In this document: one piece after another, positions 8,751 through 35,231 of the stretch
Layout: every line of letters begins with the position of its first letter
How positions within the stretch are numbered: position 1 is the stretch's first letter
Assembly (NCBI GenBank): GCA_017465505.1
Contig: JAFTWB010000024.1
Span: forward strand, 174,733-238,732
Length of the DNA: 64,000 nt
Source of the DNA: Clostridia bacterium
GTDB taxonomy: Bacteria; Bacillota; Clostridia; Oscillospirales; Acutalibacteraceae
Direction of reading: 5' to 3'
Position numbers and translations under genes: made by a program
Notes under the pieces: generated by a model
Told to the model about the DNA's origin: nothing
The model's database searches: none
Seen by the model: the letters and a program-made list of their open reading frames with translations, nothing else

Positions 8751-8773
8751 ACCCCCGAGGTTTCCTCGGGGGT
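8751..8773. terminator. Terminator shared by the acetyltransferase and the first surface gene
   Basis: Stem ACCCCCGAGG/CCTCGGGGGT with a TTT loop between convergent genes; a T-run follows on the minus strand. Confidence 0.8.
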
Positions 8774-8837: not shown

Positions 8838-9674
8838 TTACTCAGTTACCTTCTTGCGAGCGAAGAAAACTACGCCAGCAGCAGCGATCATCATAGCGAT
8901 AGCTACAACAACGATTGTTGTTTCCTGACCGGAAGAAACTGCGCCACCTGTGGAAGGTGTAGCGGGAGCGTCAACTGTAGGAGCAACGGACTTCTCCTGT
9001 TCCCAAGCAACTTCTACGCCGGAATCCTTGATGAGCTTAGCTGTTGTATCCTGAGAAAGACCGAGAGCAGTGGACATATCGTCGATGATAGCCTGATCCT
9101 GCTTACCGCTATATGTTCTAGCGTCATCGAGCCAATCGTTGAGGAAGTCTGTGAAGAGCTTCTCAGCTGTAACTCCGGGGGGGAGGCAAGTACCGATGAG
9201 GTTACCGATAGATGTAACCTGCATTACGGGACCGTAGAGAGACTTATCCTGGTTCTTCCAGAAAGCAGCAACTGCTGTCTTGGAGCTATCCTGGGGGTTC
9301 TCATAGATTGTGCCATCAGCGTAAAGTGTATCGCCGTAGCAAGCAGATGTCATAATTGTGTCGTAAGTCTGAAGGCCGATATCTACGCTGAAGATTACAC
9401 CGTAGTACTCGCCGTCTGTAAGACCGCCAACCTTGGATACATCGTAGGAATAGAGCTTATCTTCAACCTTTGTGCACTTCTCCTTCTTGGACTGCCAAGC
9501 TGCGAGAGAGTCACCGCCGTATGCCCAGATGTGGCAGTATACGGAGCTGAAGTTGTTCCAATCTGCGGGAACTTCGAAATAAATTGTTGTGTCGTCAGCA
9601 GCACTTACGCCGATAACAGCAACACTAGCCATGCAAACGAGAGCAAGAGCTAAGCAAAGAATCTTTTTGAACAT
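8838..9674 (-). CDS. Secreted, C-terminally anchored carbohydrate-binding-like protein (surface gene A)
   Basis: 278 residues. Signal peptide to about residue 25 (ending VSAADD). The body begins IYFEVPADWNNFSSVYCHIW with a conserved later GDTLYADGTIYENP, a pattern of aromatic-rich strands seen in starch-binding modules such as CBM26; Trp and Tyr are frequent. A middle helical stretch (GLSQDTTAKLIKD) follows, then a Pro/Thr segment with TPSTGG, a hydrophobic span and a KK-containing tail, i.e. membrane or sortase-like anchoring. It is a paralogue of the gene at 10741-11580, sharing QVTSIGNL and AAFWKNQD. The module assignment is by pattern only. AGGAGG precedes the ATG. Confidence 0.75.
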   Translation of the reverse strand: MFKKILCLALALVCMASVAVIGVSAADDTTIYFEVPADWNNFSSVYCHIWAYGGDSLAAWQSKKEKCTKVEDKLYSYDVSKVGGLTDGEYYGVIFSVDIGLQTYDTIMTSACYGDTLYADGTIYENPQDSSKTAVAAFWKNQDKSLYGPVMQVTSIGNLIGTCLPPGVTAEKLFTDFLNDWLDDARTYSGKQDQAIIDDMSTALGLSQDTTAKLIKDSGVEVAWEQEKSVAPTVDAPATPSTGGAVSSGQETTIVVVAIAMMIAAAGVVFFARKKVTE

Positions 9675-9711
9675 TGCAATCTCCTCCTAAAAATATAAAT
9701 GTTCAGTCTGA

Positions 9712-9725
9712 GACGATATATCGTC
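9712..9725. promoter_or_regulatory. Perfect palindrome at the start of the surface gene A transcript
   Basis: GACGATATATCGTC, 14 bases, lies at the predicted transcription start, 7 bases past the -10 box. It may be an operator or a 5' stabilising structure. Confidence 0.4.
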
Positions 9726-9731
9726 ATACTG

Positions 9732-9760
9732 ATTATACACTATATATTTCAAAACTGCAA
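9732..9760 (-). promoter_or_regulatory. Promoter of surface gene A
   Basis: On the minus strand TTGCAG, 17-base spacer, TATAAT. The -35 box is embedded in CTATTGCA, shared with the promoters of surface genes B and C. Confidence 0.82.
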
Positions 9761-9824
9761 TAGTTTTGTATATTTTGTAACCAAAAAAATTAAAATTTTT
9801 ATTATAATTTATTTAGAAAAGAAA

Positions 9825-9850
9825 AAACCTTCCGATTACTCGGAAGGTTT
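9825..9850 (-). terminator. Terminator of surface gene B
   Basis: Stem AAACCTTCCGA/TCGGAAGGTTT with a four-base loop, T-run on the minus strand. Confidence 0.88.
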
Positions 9851-9875
9851 TGAAATTTTAAGTTATTGCTTAAAA

Positions 9876-10595
9876 TTAAGCGTTAGCCTTCTTGCGAAGA
9901 ACTACAACTGCAGCACCAGCCATAGCAACTACTGCGAGAACTGCGAACATAGCAACTGTGGAACCTGTGGGAGGTGTGTCGTTGCCGTCAGCAGGAGTTG
10001 TAGCTGTGGAGCCCTGAACGTCTGTTGCAGGAACAAGAGTTGTAGCCTCAGCTGTTGTAGCCTCTGTGGGAGCAACTGTTGTAGCCTCTGTGGGAGCAAC
10101 TGTTGTTGTGGGAACTGTTGCCTGTGTTGTGGGAGCAACGTAGCCTACCATAGCTTCGTCAAGAACAACTGCGTCGTTCTTCTTCTCGCTATTTGTGTAG
10201 TAGGAATCGCCGTCCTTCTCTGTCATCTCTTCGATTGTGATAGCAGCAGTAGCCTCACCATCGCCGATAGCCTTGAACTTGATCTCTACGAGTGTAGCAG
10301 CTGCCTTGAAGTCAATACCCTTAACAACGGAAGCGTTGAAGTATACTGTACCGGCAACCTCTGTGTTTACGATAGCGGAATCACCAAGGTTAGGTGTCTC
10401 ACAAGCAACAACCTCAAGAACTGCGGGATCGTATGTAACGTAGCCCTGAACGTCCTCGATGAGCTCGGGAGTTGTAAGAGTAGCTGTGTAAACATACTCG
10501 CCCTCAGCGTCAGCTGTTAATGCGCTAGCGCCAACGATTGCAAAGCTTGCGAGGCAAACAATTGCAAGTGCTAAAGTGATAATTCTCTTGAACAT
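9876..10595 (-). CDS. Cohesin-domain surface protein with anchoring tail (surface gene B)
   Basis: 239 residues from the ATG at 10595 (AGGAGG 9 bases upstream; a longer open frame to 10655 would run through the -10 box). Signal peptide to about residue 26 (ASA). One cohesin-like module, about residues 28-145: YTATLTTPELIEDVQGYV, YDPAVLEVVACETPNLGD, then AGTVYFNASVVKGIDF and ATLVEIKFKA. A Thr/Pro/Ala-rich linker with VAPTEATT repeats follows, then TPPTG, a hydrophobic span and RKKANA. Cohesins bind dockerins of secreted enzymes; here it would expose a docking site at the cell surface. The module is very similar to those at 12063 and 14480. Confidence 0.82.
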   Translation of the reverse strand: MFKRIITLALAIVCLASFAIVGASALTADAEGEYVYTATLTTPELIEDVQGYVTYDPAVLEVVACETPNLGDSAIVNTEVAGTVYFNASVVKGIDFKAAATLVEIKFKAIGDGEATAAITIEEMTEKDGDSYYTNSEKKNDAVVLDEAMVGYVAPTTQATVPTTTVAPTEATTVAPTEATTAEATTLVPATDVQGSTATTPADGNDTPPTGSTVAMFAVLAVVAMAGAAVVVLRKKANA

Positions 10596-10626
10596 TTGGA
10601 TTTTCCTCCTAAAAAATATTTTCTTC

Positions 10627-10655
10627 ATTATACAATATCTGCTCATTAAAAGCAA
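10627..10655 (-). promoter_or_regulatory. Promoter of surface gene B
   Basis: TTGCTT, 17-base spacer, TATAAT on the minus strand, with the CTATTGC context shared by genes A and C. Confidence 0.8.
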
Positions 10656-10698
10656 TAGTATTTTACAAAAAAATATTGGAATTTTTTAAAAAAACAAA

Positions 10699-10718
10699 TC
10701 CTCGGCAGTTGCCGAGGA
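10699..10718 (-). terminator. Terminator of surface gene C
   Basis: Stem TCCTCGGC/GCCGAGGA followed on the minus strand by TTTGTTTTTTT. Confidence 0.85.
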
Positions 10719-10740
10719 CTTTTTCAGTCTGTTTTAAGGG

Positions 10741-11580
10741 TTAATTTGCAGATTTTTTGCGTAAGAAAACTACAACCGCAACTGCACAAATCATCATAAC
10801 TGCGGCAACTGCAACAACTGTTGTTTCCTGACCTGAAGAAACTGCACCACCGGCTGACGGTGTTACAGGCTTGTCAACTGTGGGAGCCTGGCTCTGAGCC
10901 TTTTCCCACTTAACCTCTACGCCATTTTCTTTGATAATAGCCTCTCCCTTATCCTGAGAAAGACCGAGAGCGTTTAAGATATCGTCGATAATCTGCTGGT
11001 CAGTCTTACCGCTGTGAGTCTGGGCACTTGAGAGGTTATTCTTAAGGAAGCCCTCAAAGAGAGTTTCGGCAGTTGAACCTGAGGGAATACAAGTACCCAC
11101 AAGGTTACCGATAGATGTTACCTGCATAATAGGTCCGTAAACAGAACGGTCCTGATTTTTCCAGAAGGCAGCAAGGGCTGTCTTTGAGCTGTCGGAAGGA
11201 TTCTCATAAACTGTACCGTCGCTGTAAAGTGTGTCGCCGATACAATCGGTTGTGAGAAGTGCGTCGTAGGTCTGGAGGTCGATATCAACCACAAAAATAA
11301 GACCGTAGTTAACACCTGCCTGAAGTCCGCCTGCTTTGCTGAGGTCATAGGAATAGAGCTTGCCTTCAACCTGCTCGCAGGCACCTTTCTTTGATTTCCA
11401 GCCAACAATAGGACCTGAGCCGTCAAGATTCCAGATGTAGCAGAACACCTTGGAGTAGTTGTTCCAGTTTTCAGGAACTTCGAAATAAATTTTGTCAGCG
11501 TCAGCGGCACTGACACCAACCATGGCAATGCCTGCAACGCAGACAAGTACCAGTGCAAGACAAAGAACTCTCTTTATCAT
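10741..11580 (-). CDS. Secreted, C-terminally anchored carbohydrate-binding-like protein (surface gene C)
   Basis: 279 residues, the same architecture as the protein at 8838-9674: signal peptide (ending VSAADA), IYFEVPENWNNYSKVFCYIW module, QTYDALLTTDCIGDTLYSDG, a helical segment with GLSQDKGEAIIKENGVEVKW, then TPSAGGAVSSGQETT, a hydrophobic span and RKKSAN. The two proteins clearly arose by duplication and share the two conserved Cys of the module (Cys after VFCYIW and in DCIGDT), which could form a disulfide outside the cell. No catalytic residues are recognisable. AGGAGG precedes the ATG by 9 bases. Function inferred as surface carbohydrate binding. Confidence 0.75.
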   Translation of the reverse strand: MIKRVLCLALVLVCVAGIAMVGVSAADADKIYFEVPENWNNYSKVFCYIWNLDGSGPIVGWKSKKGACEQVEGKLYSYDLSKAGGLQAGVNYGLIFVVDIDLQTYDALLTTDCIGDTLYSDGTVYENPSDSSKTALAAFWKNQDRSVYGPIMQVTSIGNLVGTCIPSGSTAETLFEGFLKNNLSSAQTHSGKTDQQIIDDILNALGLSQDKGEAIIKENGVEVKWEKAQSQAPTVDKPVTPSAGGAVSSGQETTVVAVAAVMMICAVAVVVFLRKKSAN

Positions 11581-11635
11581 CTGATATTCCTCCTAAATAA
11601 AAAGATATTCCTTGCAAGCGTATCTCCTTGAGTCT

Positions 11636-11664
11636 ATTATATATCAACTTTATACTATTTGCAA
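11636..11664 (-). promoter_or_regulatory. Promoter of surface gene C
   Basis: TTGCAA, 17-base spacer, TATAAT on the minus strand, again with CTATTGCA around the -35 box. Confidence 0.82.
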
Positions 11665-11908
11665 TAGACCATTTAAATTTATTGAGAATTTTAAGTCCAA
11701 GAAACAATAAAAGCTTCACTTTAAAGTTAGGCACGATTACATCCAAACGCCACTCAGCCTTTACACCGCCTTCAATATGCCCTATCTCCCCACCGATTTT
11801 TCAGAAGTTGTAATCTCCCACTGTAACTACCAGTTCGGTTATCCTGGGAATAATTTTTGTGACTCCGCCGTTAACGTGCTATTCCTTCATCGCAAACCTT
11901 CCAAAAGG

Positions 11909-11985
11909 CGGAAATGCCCACCGTGGATAACGGACGGAAACGCCCACCGTGGATAACGGACGGAAATGTCCACCGTGGCTAACGG
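11909..11985. repeat. 26-base tandem repeat, three units
   Basis: Units at 11909-11934, 11935-11960 and 11961-11985, each starting CGGAAA and containing CCACCGTGG followed by ATAACGG or CTAACGG; units 1 and 2 differ at one base. No open frame or regulatory element explains it. The rest of the gap 11665-11908 is non-coding, with a fragmentary minus-strand frame (about 11700-11800) that lacks a plausible start and conserved motif. Confidence 0.85.
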
Positions 11986-11996
11986 TAAAAAGAAAA

Positions 11997-12018
11997 CTCC
12001 TCCCCATAAGGGGAGGAG
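11997..12018 (-). terminator. Terminator of surface gene D
   Basis: Stem CTCCTCCCC/GGGGAGGAG with loop ATAA and TTTTCTTTTT on the minus strand. Confidence 0.9.
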
Positions 12019-12062
12019 CAAAGCATAAAACTAAGAGTTAAATATTCTTAGATGTCTTTGAA

Positions 12063-13352
12063 TTAAGCGTTAGCCTTCTTGCGAAGAACAACAACTGCTG
12101 CTGCAGCCATAGCAACTACTGCGAGAACTGCGAAGATAGCAACGTTTGCACCTGTGGGAGGTGTATCGTTACCGCCAGCGGGAGTTGTAGCTGTGGAGCC
12201 CTGAACATCTGTTGCAGGAGCTGTGGGAGCTGCTGTGGGAGCAACTGTCTCTGTGGGAGCTACTGTTGTTGCAGGAACTGTGGGTGTGGGAGGTACGGGA
12301 ACGTCGAGTGTCTCTGTGAGAACAACTGCGTCGTTAACCTGCTCGTCGTTTGTGAAGTAGGAGTCGCCGTCCTTCTCTGTCATCTCGTTGATTGTGAGAA
12401 CGATCTCAGAAGCCTCAGCTGTGAGAACCTTGAACTCAAGAACAACGAGGCCAGCCTCTGTTGTGAAGTCCATACCCTTAACTACGGAAGCGTTGAAGTT
12501 AACTTCGCCAGCGATTTCTGTGTTGAGGATAGCAGAATCTTCGATAACGGGAAGAGTGCAGCTAACGAGCTCTAACTTAGTAGCATCGTACTTAACGAGA
12601 GCCTGAACGTCCTCGATAAGAGCAGGAGTCTTAAGTGTAGCTGTGTATGTAACAACATCGTCTACGAGAGCTGTGTAGTCTGTGCCAGCAACTGTGATAG
12701 TAGCTGCCTCAACTGCAGGCTCAGAAGGAGTTGTTGTGTCTGTGTTCTCAACAGGAACGGGAGCCTCGAAGTAGCTCTGCTGATTGAAGTAAACAGCGCC
12801 CTTCTCAGGTGTGTAGCCGTACTCGCCGTTGCCGTAGTAGTAGAACCACTCACCAGCGAATGTGGACTTACCGCTGAAATCGTTAACTTCTGTCTTGGAC
12901 TCGTCAACAACGTAGATCATCTCGTCGAAGCTGGGAAGACCTTCAGGATAGTTAGCGCTCTCATCGGGATCATAATACTCAGAACCGATGTTCTTTGTCT
13001 GATATGCTGCTGTGTAGATAGCCTGCTCAGCGTCTGTGCCGCCGTCGATAGCGTTGTTCCAGATGATTGTTGTAACGTCAGCATTTACATCATAGTAGTA
13101 AATGTTTTCAACATCTGTCTTGTTTGCTACATAGCCGGGCCATGCGTCGCACTTGCCAGTGCCTTCCCACCAGTAAATACCAGCGGTTGTTGCGTACTCG
13201 TTGTACCAGGTCTCAGGCATAGAGAAATAGTATCTGTTGTAGCCATCTTCCTTAGCAGGAAGCTCAGCTGCAGAAACAGAAGCCATAGCCATTGTACCCA
13301 TAGAGAGTACGAGAACTGCTACCAAAATAACGCTCATAAGTTTTTTGGACAT
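12063..13352 (-). CDS. Starch-binding-type module plus cohesin surface protein (surface gene D)
   Basis: 429 residues. Signal peptide to about residue 29. Residues 35-200 form an aromatic-rich carbohydrate-binding-like region: RYYFSMPETWYNEYATTAGI, YWWEGTGKCDAWPGY, and FAGEWFYYYGNGEYG, resembling CBM26-type starch modules. Residues about 220-345 are a cohesin-like module (YTATLKTPALIEDVQALV, GEVNFNASVVKGMDF, NEMTEKDGDSYFTN). A Thr/Pro linker, TPPTG, a hydrophobic span and RKKANA end the protein. A protein that binds both starch and dockerins would hold enzymes and substrate together at the cell surface. AGGAGG precedes the ATG. The CBM family assignment is the uncertain part. Confidence 0.82.
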   Translation of the reverse strand: MSKKLMSVILVAVLVLSMGTMAMASVSAAELPAKEDGYNRYYFSMPETWYNEYATTAGIYWWEGTGKCDAWPGYVANKTDVENIYYYDVNADVTTIIWNNAIDGGTDAEQAIYTAAYQTKNIGSEYYDPDESANYPEGLPSFDEMIYVVDESKTEVNDFSGKSTFAGEWFYYYGNGEYGYTPEKGAVYFNQQSYFEAPVPVENTDTTTPSEPAVEAATITVAGTDYTALVDDVVTYTATLKTPALIEDVQALVKYDATKLELVSCTLPVIEDSAILNTEIAGEVNFNASVVKGMDFTTEAGLVVLEFKVLTAEASEIVLTINEMTEKDGDSYFTNDEQVNDAVVLTETLDVPVPPTPTVPATTVAPTETVAPTAAPTAPATDVQGSTATTPAGGNDTPPTGANVAIFAVLAVVAMAAAAVVVLRKKANA

Positions 13353-13383
13353 TTTGAATTCCTCCTATAAAATAGTACTATTT

Positions 13384-13402
13384 GCTGAATGCATTATTCA
13401 GC
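13384..13402 (-). promoter_or_regulatory. 5'-leader hairpin of surface gene D
   Basis: GCTGAAT/ATTCAGC inverted repeat with a five-base loop in the untranslated leader, between the -10 box and the ribosome binding site. Perhaps stabilises the mRNA 5' end. Confidence 0.4.
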
Positions 13403-13408
13403 AGTCTT

Positions 13409-13437
13409 ATTATATACCACTTATATGGAAAAATCAA
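13409..13437 (-). promoter_or_regulatory. Promoter of surface gene D
   Basis: TTGATT, 17-base spacer, TATAAT on the minus strand. The context TGCTTGATTTTT is the same as in the promoter of surface gene F. Confidence 0.82.
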
Positions 13438-13492
13438 GCACTAAAGTTACAATAAATCAACGCTTTTTTAGCTAATATTGCACAAAAATAAA

Positions 13493-13514
13493 AGCCGACT
13501 CCGGGGAGTCGGCT
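13493..13514 (-). terminator. Terminator of surface gene E
   Basis: 10-bp stem AGCCGACTCC/GGAGTCGGCT with T-rich tail on the minus strand. Confidence 0.88.
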
Positions 13515-13528
13515 AAGTTGGTGCAGGG

Positions 13529-14293
13529 TTAATCTTCTTTCTTTTTCTTTGCAACTGCAATAATTACAACAGCAACAAGAGCAAGCACTACAACACCGCC
13601 AATAACAAAAAGTGCTGTGTTACCGCCGTTGCCGTCATTATCATTGTCGGAGCTGTTGCCTGACTGCTGAGCAGGCTTCTTGGGGGCTTCTGTGGGCTTG
13701 ATACCTGAGCCTGTACCCTCAACGTTGTTTGCAAAGTCGCCCTTGTCAAACTCGCCTTCAACTGCGGCGTCAACCTTATCAGCGTCTGCAAGAATGGGAG
13801 TTTCAGTAGCAATAGCTACATTGTTATCAACAGAAAGGCTGTATGTAAGGGTGTAGTCGTAGATGTTAACAAGGTCGATATCATAGAGGTACTGAATGAG
13901 GTACTCAATGTTTGTCTGGCCTTCTTCTATAACTGTAAAGGTAAGCTTTGCAACTTCTTTAGCCTCTTTAAAGCTCTGGCCGTTGATATCGGAGTGGTTG
14001 AAGTAAATCACGCCGTCGCCCTGATTGTTGGCGTTAACAGTGGCAGAGGGGAAATTTTTAAGGTCAACATTCTTAAGCTCAAGGTGATTTGTGTCGAACT
14101 TGAAAATCATCTGAATACCAACAACGTCCTGCTTGTAGGACTCAAGGTAAAGTGTGTAATCAACAGTTGAGCCAACAGGAGCATCAACACCGTTAACTGT
14201 GGAAGCAGGTGCGGCAAATGCACAAAGCATTGAGGTAATCATCAAAACACAGGTAAGCATACCTGCAATTGAAATCTTAAATATACGTTTCAT
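13529..14293 (-). CDS. Divergent cohesin-like membrane-anchored surface protein (surface gene E)
   Basis: 254 residues. Signal peptide to about residue 28 (CAFAAPA). Residues 35-165 show a cohesin-like beta-sandwich pattern: APVGSTVDYTLYLES, VVGIQMIFKFDTNHLELKNV, GVIYFNHSDINGQSFKEA, AKLTFTVIEEG. It is clearly divergent from the three close cohesins of this cluster, so it may bind a different dockerin or serve another role. A charged/Asn-Gly-rich linker leads to a strong hydrophobic span and the tail KKKKED, without the TPPTG motif of its neighbours, pointing to simple membrane anchoring. AGGAGG precedes the ATG. Confidence 0.72.
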   Translation of the reverse strand: MKRIFKISIAGMLTCVLMITSMLCAFAAPASTVNGVDAPVGSTVDYTLYLESYKQDVVGIQMIFKFDTNHLELKNVDLKNFPSATVNANNQGDGVIYFNHSDINGQSFKEAKEVAKLTFTVIEEGQTNIEYLIQYLYDIDLVNIYDYTLTYSLSVDNNVAIATETPILADADKVDAAVEGEFDKGDFANNVEGTGSGIKPTEAPKKPAQQSGNSSDNDNDGNGGNTALFVIGGVVVLALVAVVIIAVAKKKKED

Positions 14294-14331
14294 AATATCT
14301 TCCTCCTAAGAAAATATAATTATTAGATTTT

Positions 14332-14360
14332 ATTATAACACAAAGATTTTTAAATTACAA
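14332..14360 (-). promoter_or_regulatory. Promoter of surface gene E
   Basis: TTGTAA, 17-base spacer, TATAAT preceded by TGT on the minus strand. Confidence 0.8.
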
Positions 14361-14405
14361 GTAGGTTAGCGATTTACATTAACTGGGCTTTTCTCAAAAG
14401 AAAAA

Positions 14406-14432
14406 CGCCCCTTCGGGAGGACCGAAGGGGCG
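14406..14432 (-). terminator. Terminator of surface gene F
   Basis: 11-bp stem CGCCCCTTCGG/CCGAAGGGGCG with TTTTTCTTTT on the minus strand. Confidence 0.9.
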
Positions 14433-14479
14433 GAAAAGCATAAATTAAGTTGATTTAATTTTTAAATAAACTTTAATAA

Positions 14480-15907
14480 TTAGCCGTTAATCTTCTTGCG
14501 AAGAACTACAACTGCACCAGCAGCCATTGTGAGTACTGCGAGTACTGCGAAGATAGCAACTGTGGAACCTGTGGGAGGTGTATCGTTGCCACCCTGGTTG
14601 GGAGTTGTAGAAGTTGTACCCTTAACATCTGTGGGAACTACAACTACTGTTGTAGCCTCAGCTGTAGCTGTTGTAGCTTCTGCTGTAGCTGTTGTAGCCT
14701 CTGTTGTGGGAGCAACTGTTGTAGGAGCAACTGTTGTGGGAGCAGTTGTTTCTTCCTGAACGAAGAGAGACTCAGTAACTACTACTGCGTCGTTCTTCTG
14801 CTCGCTGTCTGTGAAGTAAGAGTCGCCGTCCTTCTCTGTCATCTCTTCGATTGTAAGAGCGATCTCAGAGTAAGTGTCGTCAACAACTGCGAACTTGATC
14901 TCAACGAGAGTAGCCTCAGTTGTGAAGTCGATACCCTTAACTACAGAAGCATTGAAGTAAACTGTGCCTGCGAGCTCTGTGTTGATGATAGCGGAATCAC
15001 CAAGGTTGGGAGCTACGCAATCAACAACTGTGAGCTTTGCAGCGTCGTAAGAAACGAAGCCCTGAACGTCCTCGATGAGAGCAGGAGTCTTGAGTGTAGC
15101 TGTGTAAACGATCTCCTCGCCTACTGTTACATCATACTCTTTGCCATCAACTACAACGCCGTTGCCCTCTGCAGGAGCAGCTGTTGTCTCAACAGGAGCA
15201 GCAGTTGTCTCAACGGGCTCTGCAACTGTTGTCTCAACGGGAGCAGCTGTTGTCTCAACGGGCTCTGCAACTGTTGTCTCAACAGGAGCAGCTGTTGTCT
15301 CAACGGGCTCTGCAACTGTTGTCTCAACAGGAGCAGCTGTTGTCTCAACGGGCTCTGCAACTGTTGTTTCAACGGGAGCAGCTGTTGTCTCAACAGGCTC
15401 TGCAACTGTTGTTTCAACGGGAGCAGCTGTTGTCTCAACAGGAGCAGCTGTTGTCTCAACGGGAGCAGCTGTTGTTTCCTGTGTAGCGGGCTCAATGATA
15501 TCAAGAAGAGCCTTTGTGCCGTCAAAGCCGATGATAACTGTGGAACCATCAACTGTTACTGTTGCAACAGCGTTAGCACCACCGTACATAGCGTCGCCTT
15601 CGAGGTTGAAGTCGCCGTTATCCCATGCACCGCCGGTTGTAACCTTGAAAGCATACTCACCAGCTGCAACGTTCTCATAAACTTTCTCGTAGATACCCTT
15701 ATCAGCATTGAAGGTCATCTGGTTTGCTGTGTCAGAGGGATCCCAACCTGTACCAGTGTTACCAGCACCGCAAAGCTCAGGAACACCTGCAACAACGTGC
15801 ATTGCACCGTCCTCAAGAGCATTGAAAGAAACGATAGCTACTGTTGTCATTGCCATAACCAGCACTGCTGCGAGAACAACGCTGATTATTTTCTTTGTCT
15901 TAGACAT
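14480..15907 (-). CDS. X25-like starch module, repeat linker and cohesin surface protein (surface gene F)
   Basis: 475 residues from the ATG at 15907 (AAGGAGG upstream); the open frame to 15982 would run through the promoter. Signal peptide, then residues 37-140 resemble the X25/pullulanase-type module (VVAGVPELCG, GTGWDPSDTANQMT, GIYEKVYENVAAGEYAFKV, GGAWDNG). Residues 144-249 are a low-complexity linker built from ETTAAPV and five 15-residue units ETTVAEPVETTAAPV. Residues about 255-375 are a cohesin-like module (YTATLKTPALIEDVQGFV, AGTVYFNASVVKGIDF). A second Thr/Ala linker, TPPTG, hydrophobic span and RKKING finish the protein. Likely a surface scaffold that binds starch and docks enzymes; the long linker would extend it from the wall. 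Confidence 0.83.
   Translation of the reverse strand: MSKTKKIISVVLAAVLVMAMTTVAIVSFNALEDGAMHVVAGVPELCGAGNTGTGWDPSDTANQMTFNADKGIYEKVYENVAAGEYAFKVTTGGAWDNGDFNLEGDAMYGGANAVATVTVDGSTVIIGFDGTKALLDIIEPATQETTAAPVETTAAPVETTAAPVETTVAEPVETTAAPVETTVAEPVETTAAPVETTVAEPVETTAAPVETTVAEPVETTAAPVETTVAEPVETTAAPVETTAAPAEGNGVVVDGKEYDVTVGEEIVYTATLKTPALIEDVQGFVSYDAAKLTVVDCVAPNLGDSAIINTELAGTVYFNASVVKGIDFTTEATLVEIKFAVVDDTYSEIALTIEEMTEKDGDSYFTDSEQKNDAVVVTESLFVQEETTAPTTVAPTTVAPTTEATTATAEATTATAEATTVVVVPTDVKGTTSTTPNQGGNDTPPTGSTVAIFAVLAVLTMAAGAVVVLRKKING
15161..15478 (-). repeat. Coding tandem repeats of the surface gene F linker
   Basis: Five near-identical 45-base units flanked by shorter 21-base units, encoding Pro/Thr/Val/Glu/Ala repeats. 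Unit-to-unit changes are mostly silent third-base changes. Such repeats readily change copy number. Confidence 0.85.
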
Positions 15908-33886: not shown

Positions 33887-34315
33887 TTATTTGTCGCTCT
33901 CGGATTTGTCTTTTAACTGCAAAAGCACGTTCTTAAGCTTTTTGGGAAGGGGTATTACCTTGGCGGCGTTTTCCAGAACCGACAACCCCTCATTTGCTAT
34001 GAAAAAAAGAATTGTCATCTCTCTTAAGGGAAGCCCCTGGGGGAGAATCCTCTGTAAAGCCACTGCAACCCCAACCACCAGAAGCATAATCACCTTTTTG
34101 ATTATGCCTTTGTAGCCTATAGCACTGGAAAGCTTTTTCTCGTAAGCCGCACTTATAACCCCTGTGACATAGTCCACAACAATAAGAATGATAAGGGTCA
34201 CAAGCAAACTGTCAAAGCCGCCGAGAAATTTTGAAACATAGCCGAAAATTGCGGCGATTACTGCGGAAAAGGTAAACTTTGCCGCCGACACACCTGTGCT
34301 GAAAGGATTATACAT
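33887..34315 (-). CDS. Phage-type holin (phage_holin_4/TcdE-like)
   Basis: 142 residues from the ATG at 34315, which has GCAGGTG six bases upstream; a TTG at 34330 is possible. Three hydrophobic segments: VSAAKFTFSAVIAAIFGYV, LLVTLIILIVVDYVTGVISAAY, and VIMLLVVGVAVALQRIL. The DYVTGVISAAYEKKLSSAIGYKGI pattern is the hallmark of the Clostridium/phage holin family that also includes TcdE. The gene overlaps the lysin gene end by eight bases, the classic lysis-cassette arrangement. It would form membrane holes for the lysin. Confidence 0.92.
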   Translation of the reverse strand: MYNPFSTGVSAAKFTFSAVIAAIFGYVSKFLGGFDSLLVTLIILIVVDYVTGVISAAYEKKLSSAIGYKGIIKKVIMLLVVGVAVALQRILPQGLPLREMTILFFIANEGLSVLENAAKVIPLPKKLKNVLLQLKDKSESDK

Positions 34316-35231
34316 CAAAAACACCTGCAATCTCTTTCTGCAAAGCAGTTGCGTCCTTGATATTTACCGCTCCGTCGCCGTTTACATCTCCCACCACAGG
34401 CAAGCTGTCAAGAATCTGCTGATACATCCTTCTTACAAAAACAAGGTCAATCTCCTCATTTTCTTCAAGAGAGAGTGCCTTTTTCATCTGCAAAATTGCA
34501 GCATTGGTCATTCTGCCCTTTTTGTTATCAATGGGCGAAATACTCTGGCTGATAACTCCAAGCCTTTGGGAAATCATCAGAATACTCTGCAAAAGAGCAG
34601 TTTCAAAATTCTCTTCAGGCTTTTCTTCAGGCTTCTGCACAGCTTTTACCAGCTTGGGATTATAAATAATATTCATATCCACATTGCCGCTTATGCCATC
34701 TATTTTGGCGCTTGAAGTATACTGCCACATATCGCACTCAAACTCTGGCACGTCATTATACTGGGCAAGCCAGATATAGTAAGTGCCGTAGAGGGTTTTG
34801 TAATCAAGGTAGTTTTCAAACCAGTTTGCATTGGCGTAAACTCCCACACGATAGCCTTCCGTAAGGAGAAGAGCCATAAAAGTCTTTGCCATTTTTGTGA
34901 GAGTTTCTTTGCCAAGGTCTGATTGGGAGTTGTCCTCCATATCGTAAAACACGGGAAGCTCAAACTCCTTGTTTCCAAGAACAGAGATACAGGCTTTCGC
35001 CTCTCTATTTGCGTCCTCAACGCTGTCTGCGTAAGAGTACCAGTAAGCTCCCACATTAAGCCCTGCTTTTTTTGCCTCGGTATAGTTTTTTTCAAACATA
35101 CTGTCCTTCTGAGCAGAATTTCTGCCAAAGCCTGCACGAAGCACAACGCAGGAAACCCCCTGTGCCTTTACTTTTTCAAAGTCCACATCACCTTGCCACT
35201 CGGAAACATCTATACACTTAATTTCTGCCAA
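34308..35231 (-). CDS. GH25 lysozyme (endolysin) with a single dockerin-like repeat
   Basis: 307 residues, TTG start with AGGAGGTGA. No signal peptide, as expected of a holin-dependent endolysin. Residues 1-205 are a GH25 barrel: CIDVSEWQGDVDFEKVKAQG, catalytic FYDMED, AQYNDVPEFECDMWQY. Residues 205-280 are a charged helical linker. The C-terminus GDVNGDGAVNIKDATALQKEI is one EF-hand-like dockerin repeat with the DxNxDGxxxxxD calcium loop; the second repeat of a normal dockerin is missing. It cuts muramic acid bonds in peptidoglycan. Confidence 0.92.
   Translation of the reverse strand: MAEIKCIDVSEWQGDVDFEKVKAQGVSCVVLRAGFGRNSAQKDSMFEKNYTEAKKAGLNVGAYWYSYADSVEDANREAKACISVLGNKEFELPVFYDMEDNSQSDLGKETLTKMAKTFMALLLTEGYRVGVYANANWFENYLDYKTLYGTYYIWLAQYNDVPEFECDMWQYTSSAKIDGISGNVDMNIIYNPKLVKAVQKPEEKPEENFETALLQSILMISQRLGVISQSISPIDNKKGRMTNAAILQMKKALSLEENEEIDLVFVRRMYQQILDSLPVVGDVNGDGAVNIKDATALQKEIAGVFDV

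Follow-up and report, generated by a model that had tools for sequence, protein, structure and literature searches.

Six consecutive genes at positions 8838-15907 of the window, by which is meant the whole 64,000-nucleotide stretch of a Clostridia bacterium genome (family Acutalibacteraceae; contig JAFTWB010000024.1), very probably encode the surface end of a Ruminococcus bromii-type amylosome. Amylosomes of this type are central to the breakdown of resistant starch, and R. bromii itself presumably belongs to the same genus as the source organism, going by GTDB. At this locus, in a gut species related to R. bromii, the anchoring set is gathered in one cluster; natural fusions link surface proteins of the Sas20d1 type (domain 1 of Sas20) to the cohesin system, and the genome, which is 84% complete, holds 60 dockerin open reading frames (ORFs) with a near-uniform dockerin motif to 6 cohesins. 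An initial annotation, made from the letters alone, had proposed a starch-holding and docking set. By profile or by fold, the modules do correspond to cohesins and starch-binding domains, which supports that proposal as far as binding and docking can be predicted from such matches.

The ORFs all lie on the minus strand, fill the interval as annotated and are transcribed in the order g6, g5, g4, g3, g2, g1. Four of the encoded proteins carry one cohesin each. In g6 (14480..15907; 475 amino acids, aa) a signal peptide is followed by an X25 starch-binding-type module (15533..15754; aa 52-125), a long Thr/Pro/Ala linker, the cohesin (14756..15157; aa 251-384) and a PPTG-type anchor. The g4 protein (12063..13352; 429 aa) combines a signal peptide, an N-terminal aromatic module with a CBM26-like fold (12792..13277; aa 26-187), a linker, the cohesin (12297..12698; aa 219-352), a Thr/Pro linker and a PPTG-type anchor, and g2 (9876..10595; 239 aa) consists of a signal peptide, the cohesin (10146..10520; aa 26-150), a Thr/Pro linker and an anchor of the same type. 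The fourth, g5 (13529..14293; 254 aa), has a signal peptide, a cohesin of a second type (13811..14218; aa 26-161) and a transmembrane segment with a Lys tail. The remaining two, g3 (10741..11580; 279 aa) and g1 (8838..9674; 278 aa), each join a Sas20d1-like module (11008..11508, aa 25-191, and 9105..9602, aa 25-190, respectively) to a C-terminal hydrophobic anchor.

The cohesins fall into three near-alike copies and one divergent copy, as had been read by eye: compared with the g6 cohesin, that of g4 shows 63% identity and that of g2 67% (when the wider module is taken, the three share 53-62%), whereas the g5 cohesin shows only 23%. The Pfam model PF00963 exceeds its cut-off only in g5 (43.3 bits against 24.1), and X25 is likewise found by Pfam in g6 (PF22058, 35.4 bits against 27), but the Pfam cohesin model misses g2, g4 and g6, which are recognised by their own profile or by structure comparison. 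In sequence searches of the PDB g4 alone reached 7urp at E 0.11 and its profile at 4e-6, while g6 alone or g5 alone gave no usable match. By structure comparison the cohesin fold is nearest to that of Sca5 of R. bromii. The two aromatic N-terminal modules of starch-binding type expected in the cluster are thus present, the X25 of g6 by profile and that of g4 by a predicted fold resembling CBM26, with no match of g4 to the CBM26 model PF16738 in hmmscan.

All six proteins have a signal-peptide-like start and a C-terminal hydrophobic segment with a basic tail, judged by eye and in keeping with the initial annotation; in g4, aa 403-428 form a helix in the AlphaFold2 (AF2) model. The wall anchors and Thr/Pro linkers once ascribed to the set are plausible for g2, g4 and g6, where alone the PPTG-type sortase-like motif and a Thr/Pro-rich linker occur, but not for the other three: the motif is degenerate in g1 (PSTGG) and g3 (PSAGG) and absent from g5, and none of the six proteins reaches an anchor-model cut-off in Pfam or NCBIfam. 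The genome encodes four sortases over cut-off. Taken together, signal peptide, transmembrane segment and motif suggest that the cluster cohesins are attached to the cell.

Scanning named genomes for the g5 family gave eight relative loci, all in metagenome-assembled genomes (MAGs): one from sheep rectum, one from roe deer cecum, three from goat, and SIG571, S2A_St_36 and UBA7075, whose titles name no host. Three loci, from sheep (L065), SIG571 (L066) and roe deer (L067), are syntenic with the window, with UDG, GNAT and GH31 genes on one flank; the carboxylase genes of the other flank are found in the sheep locus and in stretch L021 of genome G026. The order g6-g5-g4 is kept in six of the eight; the contig of L068 measures 3.2 kb, and g5 of L072 lies beside a protein with the g4 module in which a cohesin was not found. 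At the position of g6 the starch module varies: it is X25 in the window and L070, CBM26 in roe deer, sheep and L071, and both in L024 (same contig as L069); in SIG571 g6 starts at the contig end, and the module end is missing from L066.

What, then, would be docked at these cohesins? Dockerin proteins do occur elsewhere in the genome: the 60 ORFs contain 62 dockerin places, of which 61 exceed the family cut-off. Among the matches listed (Pfam at E 0.001, 25 of 41 families), 17 of the 60 also carry CBM26, 4 GH13 and 2 X25. The cargo is wider than the amylases that the initial annotation had in view, including protease-, CotH- and lysozyme-like proteins. Docking may not be limited to starch, since the dockerin set also holds LRR_5 (15/60) and papain-like C1, CHAP, CotH, MucBP and metallophosphatase matches (2 ORFs each, as for GH25). 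The motif D-[ASV]-T-x-x-Q-[KR] is present in both repeats of 56 of the 60 ORFs, in one repeat of 3 and in neither repeat of 1, and the consensus D-A-T-x-I-Q-K is identical in both repeats across four species (59, 33, 19 and 17 dockerins). This comparison, from which 1 of 129 rows was dropped as gappy, covers nearly all dockerin places found in the window genome and the best-scoring loci of the relatives (30 in roe deer, 15 in sheep and 15 in SIG571); the motif is looser in SIG571, with T in 76% in repeat 2.

Such a dockerin set raises the possibility, somewhat doubtful in our judgement, of a general-purpose surface display platform, on which proteases, LRR proteins and other cargo are docked and starch is one ligand of several. 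The share of LRR_5 and of the smaller families, set beside so few GH13 ORFs, speaks for it, as does the near-uniform motif, with which all dockerins could use the same slots. Against it stand the N-terminal modules identified in the cluster and, in relatives, at the position of g6, which are of alpha-glucan-binding kinds, and the frequency of CBM26 among the dockerin ORFs. One dockerin-like protein with the common motif in neither repeat (C19, L095:691-1725) could pair with the divergent g5 cohesin.

The module of g1 and g3 bears on the starch-binding side. The two are paralogues, as first described, at 64% identity, but the CBM26-like label fits less well: in hmmscan PF16738 scores 27.9 bits for g1 and 24.1 for g3, both under the gathering cut-off of 28.1, although the genome scan places g1 over the cut-off at 30.5 bits. 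A profile of g1, g3 and three relatives matches Sas20 domain 1 at E 8e-26, and sequence comparison with the ligand residues of the maltotriose-binding platform of Sas20d1 gives 5 of 8 identical, 2 conservative and the substitution T152P; Sas20 domain 1, a known starch-binding domain of solved structure, is, at the level of sequence, the better identification. Since neither a cohesin nor a dockerin was found in g1 or g3 by profile searches, they could be independent starch-adhesion proteins merely adjoining the scaffoldins. This has been proposed for the wall-anchored R. bromii L2-63 homologue RBR_02940 (also printed as RBR_09240), which was judged an unlikely amylosome member and whose gene neighbours are unrelated (PMC9112005). 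For g1 and g3 such independence seems unlikely: fusions of the same module to a cohesin and anchor lie inside the cluster in three of the eight relatives, the syntenic ones, and the module is also present in one dockerin protein of the same genome (C11).

In the amylosome that we favour, sortase anchoring of g2, g4 and g6, perhaps also of g1 and g3, and membrane anchoring of g5 would place the proteins on the envelope, where the N-terminal modules of g1, g3, g4 and g6 would hold starch. Each exposed cohesin (g2, g4, g5, g6) would be a single slot taking one of about 60 dockerin proteins, so that attachment would not be a fixed scaffold but an exchange over a limited number of shared slots. The fold and family of each module are assigned by comparison; binding, anchoring and competition are what those assignments would predict. 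In the 84% of the genome that the assembly covers, the six cohesins each lie in their own ORF, and none belongs to a multi-cohesin scaffoldin of the kind by which cellulosomes are recognised. With some 10 dockerin ORFs per cohesin, cell attachment would run largely through the cluster. A protein with both cohesin and dockerin is encoded on contig C6, and through this adaptor a further protein could be linked to a slot.

By module content the cluster belongs with the R. bromii amylosome, in which the scaffoldins Sca1-Sca5 also carry one or two cohesins, some with sortase signals (PMC5814915; PMC9112005), X25 also occurs on scaffoldins, and a protein with both cohesin and dockerin is also known; the published comparison of amylosomes rests on five R. 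bromii strains (PMC5814915). For L2-63 the number of cohesins is likewise six, while 27 dockerin proteins compare with the 60 ORFs here (PMC9112005). Unlike in R. bromii, six surface genes are gathered in one cluster with four one-cohesin proteins, and Sas20d1-like modules are anchored beside cohesins and, in relatives, fused to them. This clustering, the anchored Sas20d1-like proteins inside it and the fusions go beyond the descriptions in the available portions of PMC5814915 and PMC9112005. With Sas20 and its anchored homologue g1 and g3 share the Sas20d1 match, and with the latter the reported substitutions Y60W and T152P (PMC9112005); Sas20 differs in bearing a dockerin, and RBR_02940 in having unrelated genes as neighbours. 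The sca cluster of Ruminococcus flavefaciens (PMC3197198) resembles the locus in clustered scaffoldin genes whose order is kept while sequences diverge between strains, but serves a cellulose system and shows the reverse pattern in ScaC, where conservation lies in the cohesin region and variation in part of the dockerin.

Outside the cluster, a small cohesin protein with a lipobox-like start, judged by eye, is encoded in the same genome (C27, L206:1465-2106) and in relatives (L025:3326-4072, L027:1118-1846); in all of these its gene adjoins one for a cyclophilin-like lipoprotein, and it might act as a docking slot tethered to the membrane. Cohesin proteins of 571-601 aa are further encoded by the genomes of roe deer, sheep and SIG571 (L203:598-2310, L189:556-2358, L186:574-2349), in which an adaptor-like start and a cohesin precede a long uncharacterised C-terminal region and a dockerin was not found.

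When the window is compared with roe deer, sheep and SIG571, and these with one another, identity is 80-90% in the g4 N-module and 83-98% in the g1 module, but 37-54% in the g4 cohesin. Same-gene g2, g4 and g6 cohesins of different species (15 pairs) have a median identity of 47% (37-68), against 64% (53-80) for the 10 pairs of paralogues from one species; the Mann-Whitney test gives p 0.001, though the pairs are not independent of each other. In a tree of 12 cohesins, from which the fusion and extra cohesins roe_sc, roe_g2b and shp_sc were left out, window and roe deer are split from sheep and SIG571 (100/100); the approximately unbiased (AU) test rejects holding roe deer and sheep together (p 0.011) and also rejects a clade of g4 alone or of g6 alone, the AU groups having been picked with the first tree already known. 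In four flanking proteins (1182 columns), by contrast, roe deer groups with sheep (99/98), and sheep with SIG571 is rejected (AU p 0.0055). The g4 N-module tree alone leaves the four species unresolved (roe deer and sheep 52/25), with alternatives not rejected. On a 25-row tree, 19 g2, g4 and g6 cohesins from 8 species need 8 changes when labelled by species and 10 when labelled by their 3 gene positions. As to chimerism of the MAGs, the g2, g4 and g6 cohesins of sheep share 66-80% identity among themselves but 54-66% with those of SIG571, so they are not copies of the latter. Cohesin types A, B and C differ by a loop of 0, 4 or 16 residues.

A tentative reading of this mosaic, to which we give somewhat less than even odds, is that the cluster cohesins form an exchangeable cassette: within surface proteins that are otherwise orthologous, transfer and gene conversion would have replaced the segment in several genes by another type (A, B or C), leaving starch modules, anchors and dockerin motif in place. 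Several results weigh against it. The window and roe deer g2 cohesins are sisters (98/96), one of the four sheep cluster cohesins of the g2/g4/g6 kind did not switch (the sheep fusion cohesin shp_sc lies, on a long branch, on the window and roe deer side of the 25-row tree), and g5 follows a third pattern of its own (2:2 columns 0, 2, 6). Within-species cohesins form one side of a branch only for the three of SIG571 and the two of one goat species; homogenisation is clear there and likely in sheep, but not in the window or roe deer. Exchange and fast change are not told apart by synonymous sites, the adaptor is 44-49% identical over its full length in the five species pairs other than roe deer-sheep, and all named relatives compared are MAGs.

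Rapid amino-acid divergence in place, under relaxed or diversifying selection, would explain the mosaic without segment exchange, and we consider it rather improbable. The synonymous divergence (dS) of the g4 cohesin between roe deer and sheep (1.18) is not above that of the four flanking genes (1.03 together), codons for the same amino acid are identical at 26/30 sites in the anchor and 40/56 in the cohesin (p 0.18, not significant), and adaptor cohesins outside the cluster also fall to 39-49% in those five other pairs. The topology conflict with the flanking genes argues the other way, as do the same-amino-acid codons of the g4 N-module in the roe deer-sheep pair (124/141 against 40/56 in the cohesin, Fisher p 0.010) and the cohesins of the adaptor (69% full length, 66% cohesin) and the lipoprotein, both closest, like the flanking genes, between roe deer and sheep.

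Some stronger statements were given up. Elevated dS as proof of replacement was dropped, the flanking genes being similar or higher; for fast evolution of every cohesin the evidence is mixed, the lipoprotein cohesin being better conserved than the remainder of its protein and the adaptor divergent throughout; and complete within-species homogenisation is not supported, window and roe deer cohesins not each forming one clade. Co-evolution in the known dockerin motif was not seen, the consensus being the same in four species and the dockerin roughly as conserved as the rest: in six orthologous roe deer-sheep pairs the medians are 74% and 75%. The five other comparisons comprise 3-8 pairs; a pair was kept if it had at least 50% identity and 80 codons beyond the dockerin. 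Dockerins are not swapped in most pairs, but in two pairs with SIG571 the dockerin, at 46%, is clearly less alike than the rest of the protein (61% and 65%). If the cassette reading is true, docking specificity would not drive cohesin change, and candidate drivers would be surface attack (phage, antibody) or the exclusion of dockerin proteins of sister species through contacts outside the known motif. In the literature searched no report was found of cohesin exchange inside genes; horizontal transfer of whole sca clusters is raised in PMC5748583. The mosaic supplies orthologue pairs, from the roe deer and sheep MAGs, for asking whether cohesin change alters docking partners.

Terminator-like stems start 15-65 nucleotides downstream of all six stops, on the same strand (14406..14432 after g6, 13493-13514 after g5, 11996-12019 after g4, 10696-10721 after g3, 9824-9851 after g2 and 8751-8773 after g1), and promoter-like sites lie upstream of five of the six genes, both being consensus matches; 24 terminator-like sites were observed against 6.6 (sd 2.5) in shuffles. 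Because a stem follows each gene and promoter-like sites precede five, each may be transcribed separately. Finally, two GH25 lysozyme-like ORFs, at 34308-35099 of the window on the minus strand and at G000 C10:1091-2008, end in a single half-dockerin repeat bearing the same D-A-T-x-x-Q-K motif, and similar short half-dockerin matches occur in genomes G026 and G084 in open frames of 313-326 aa.

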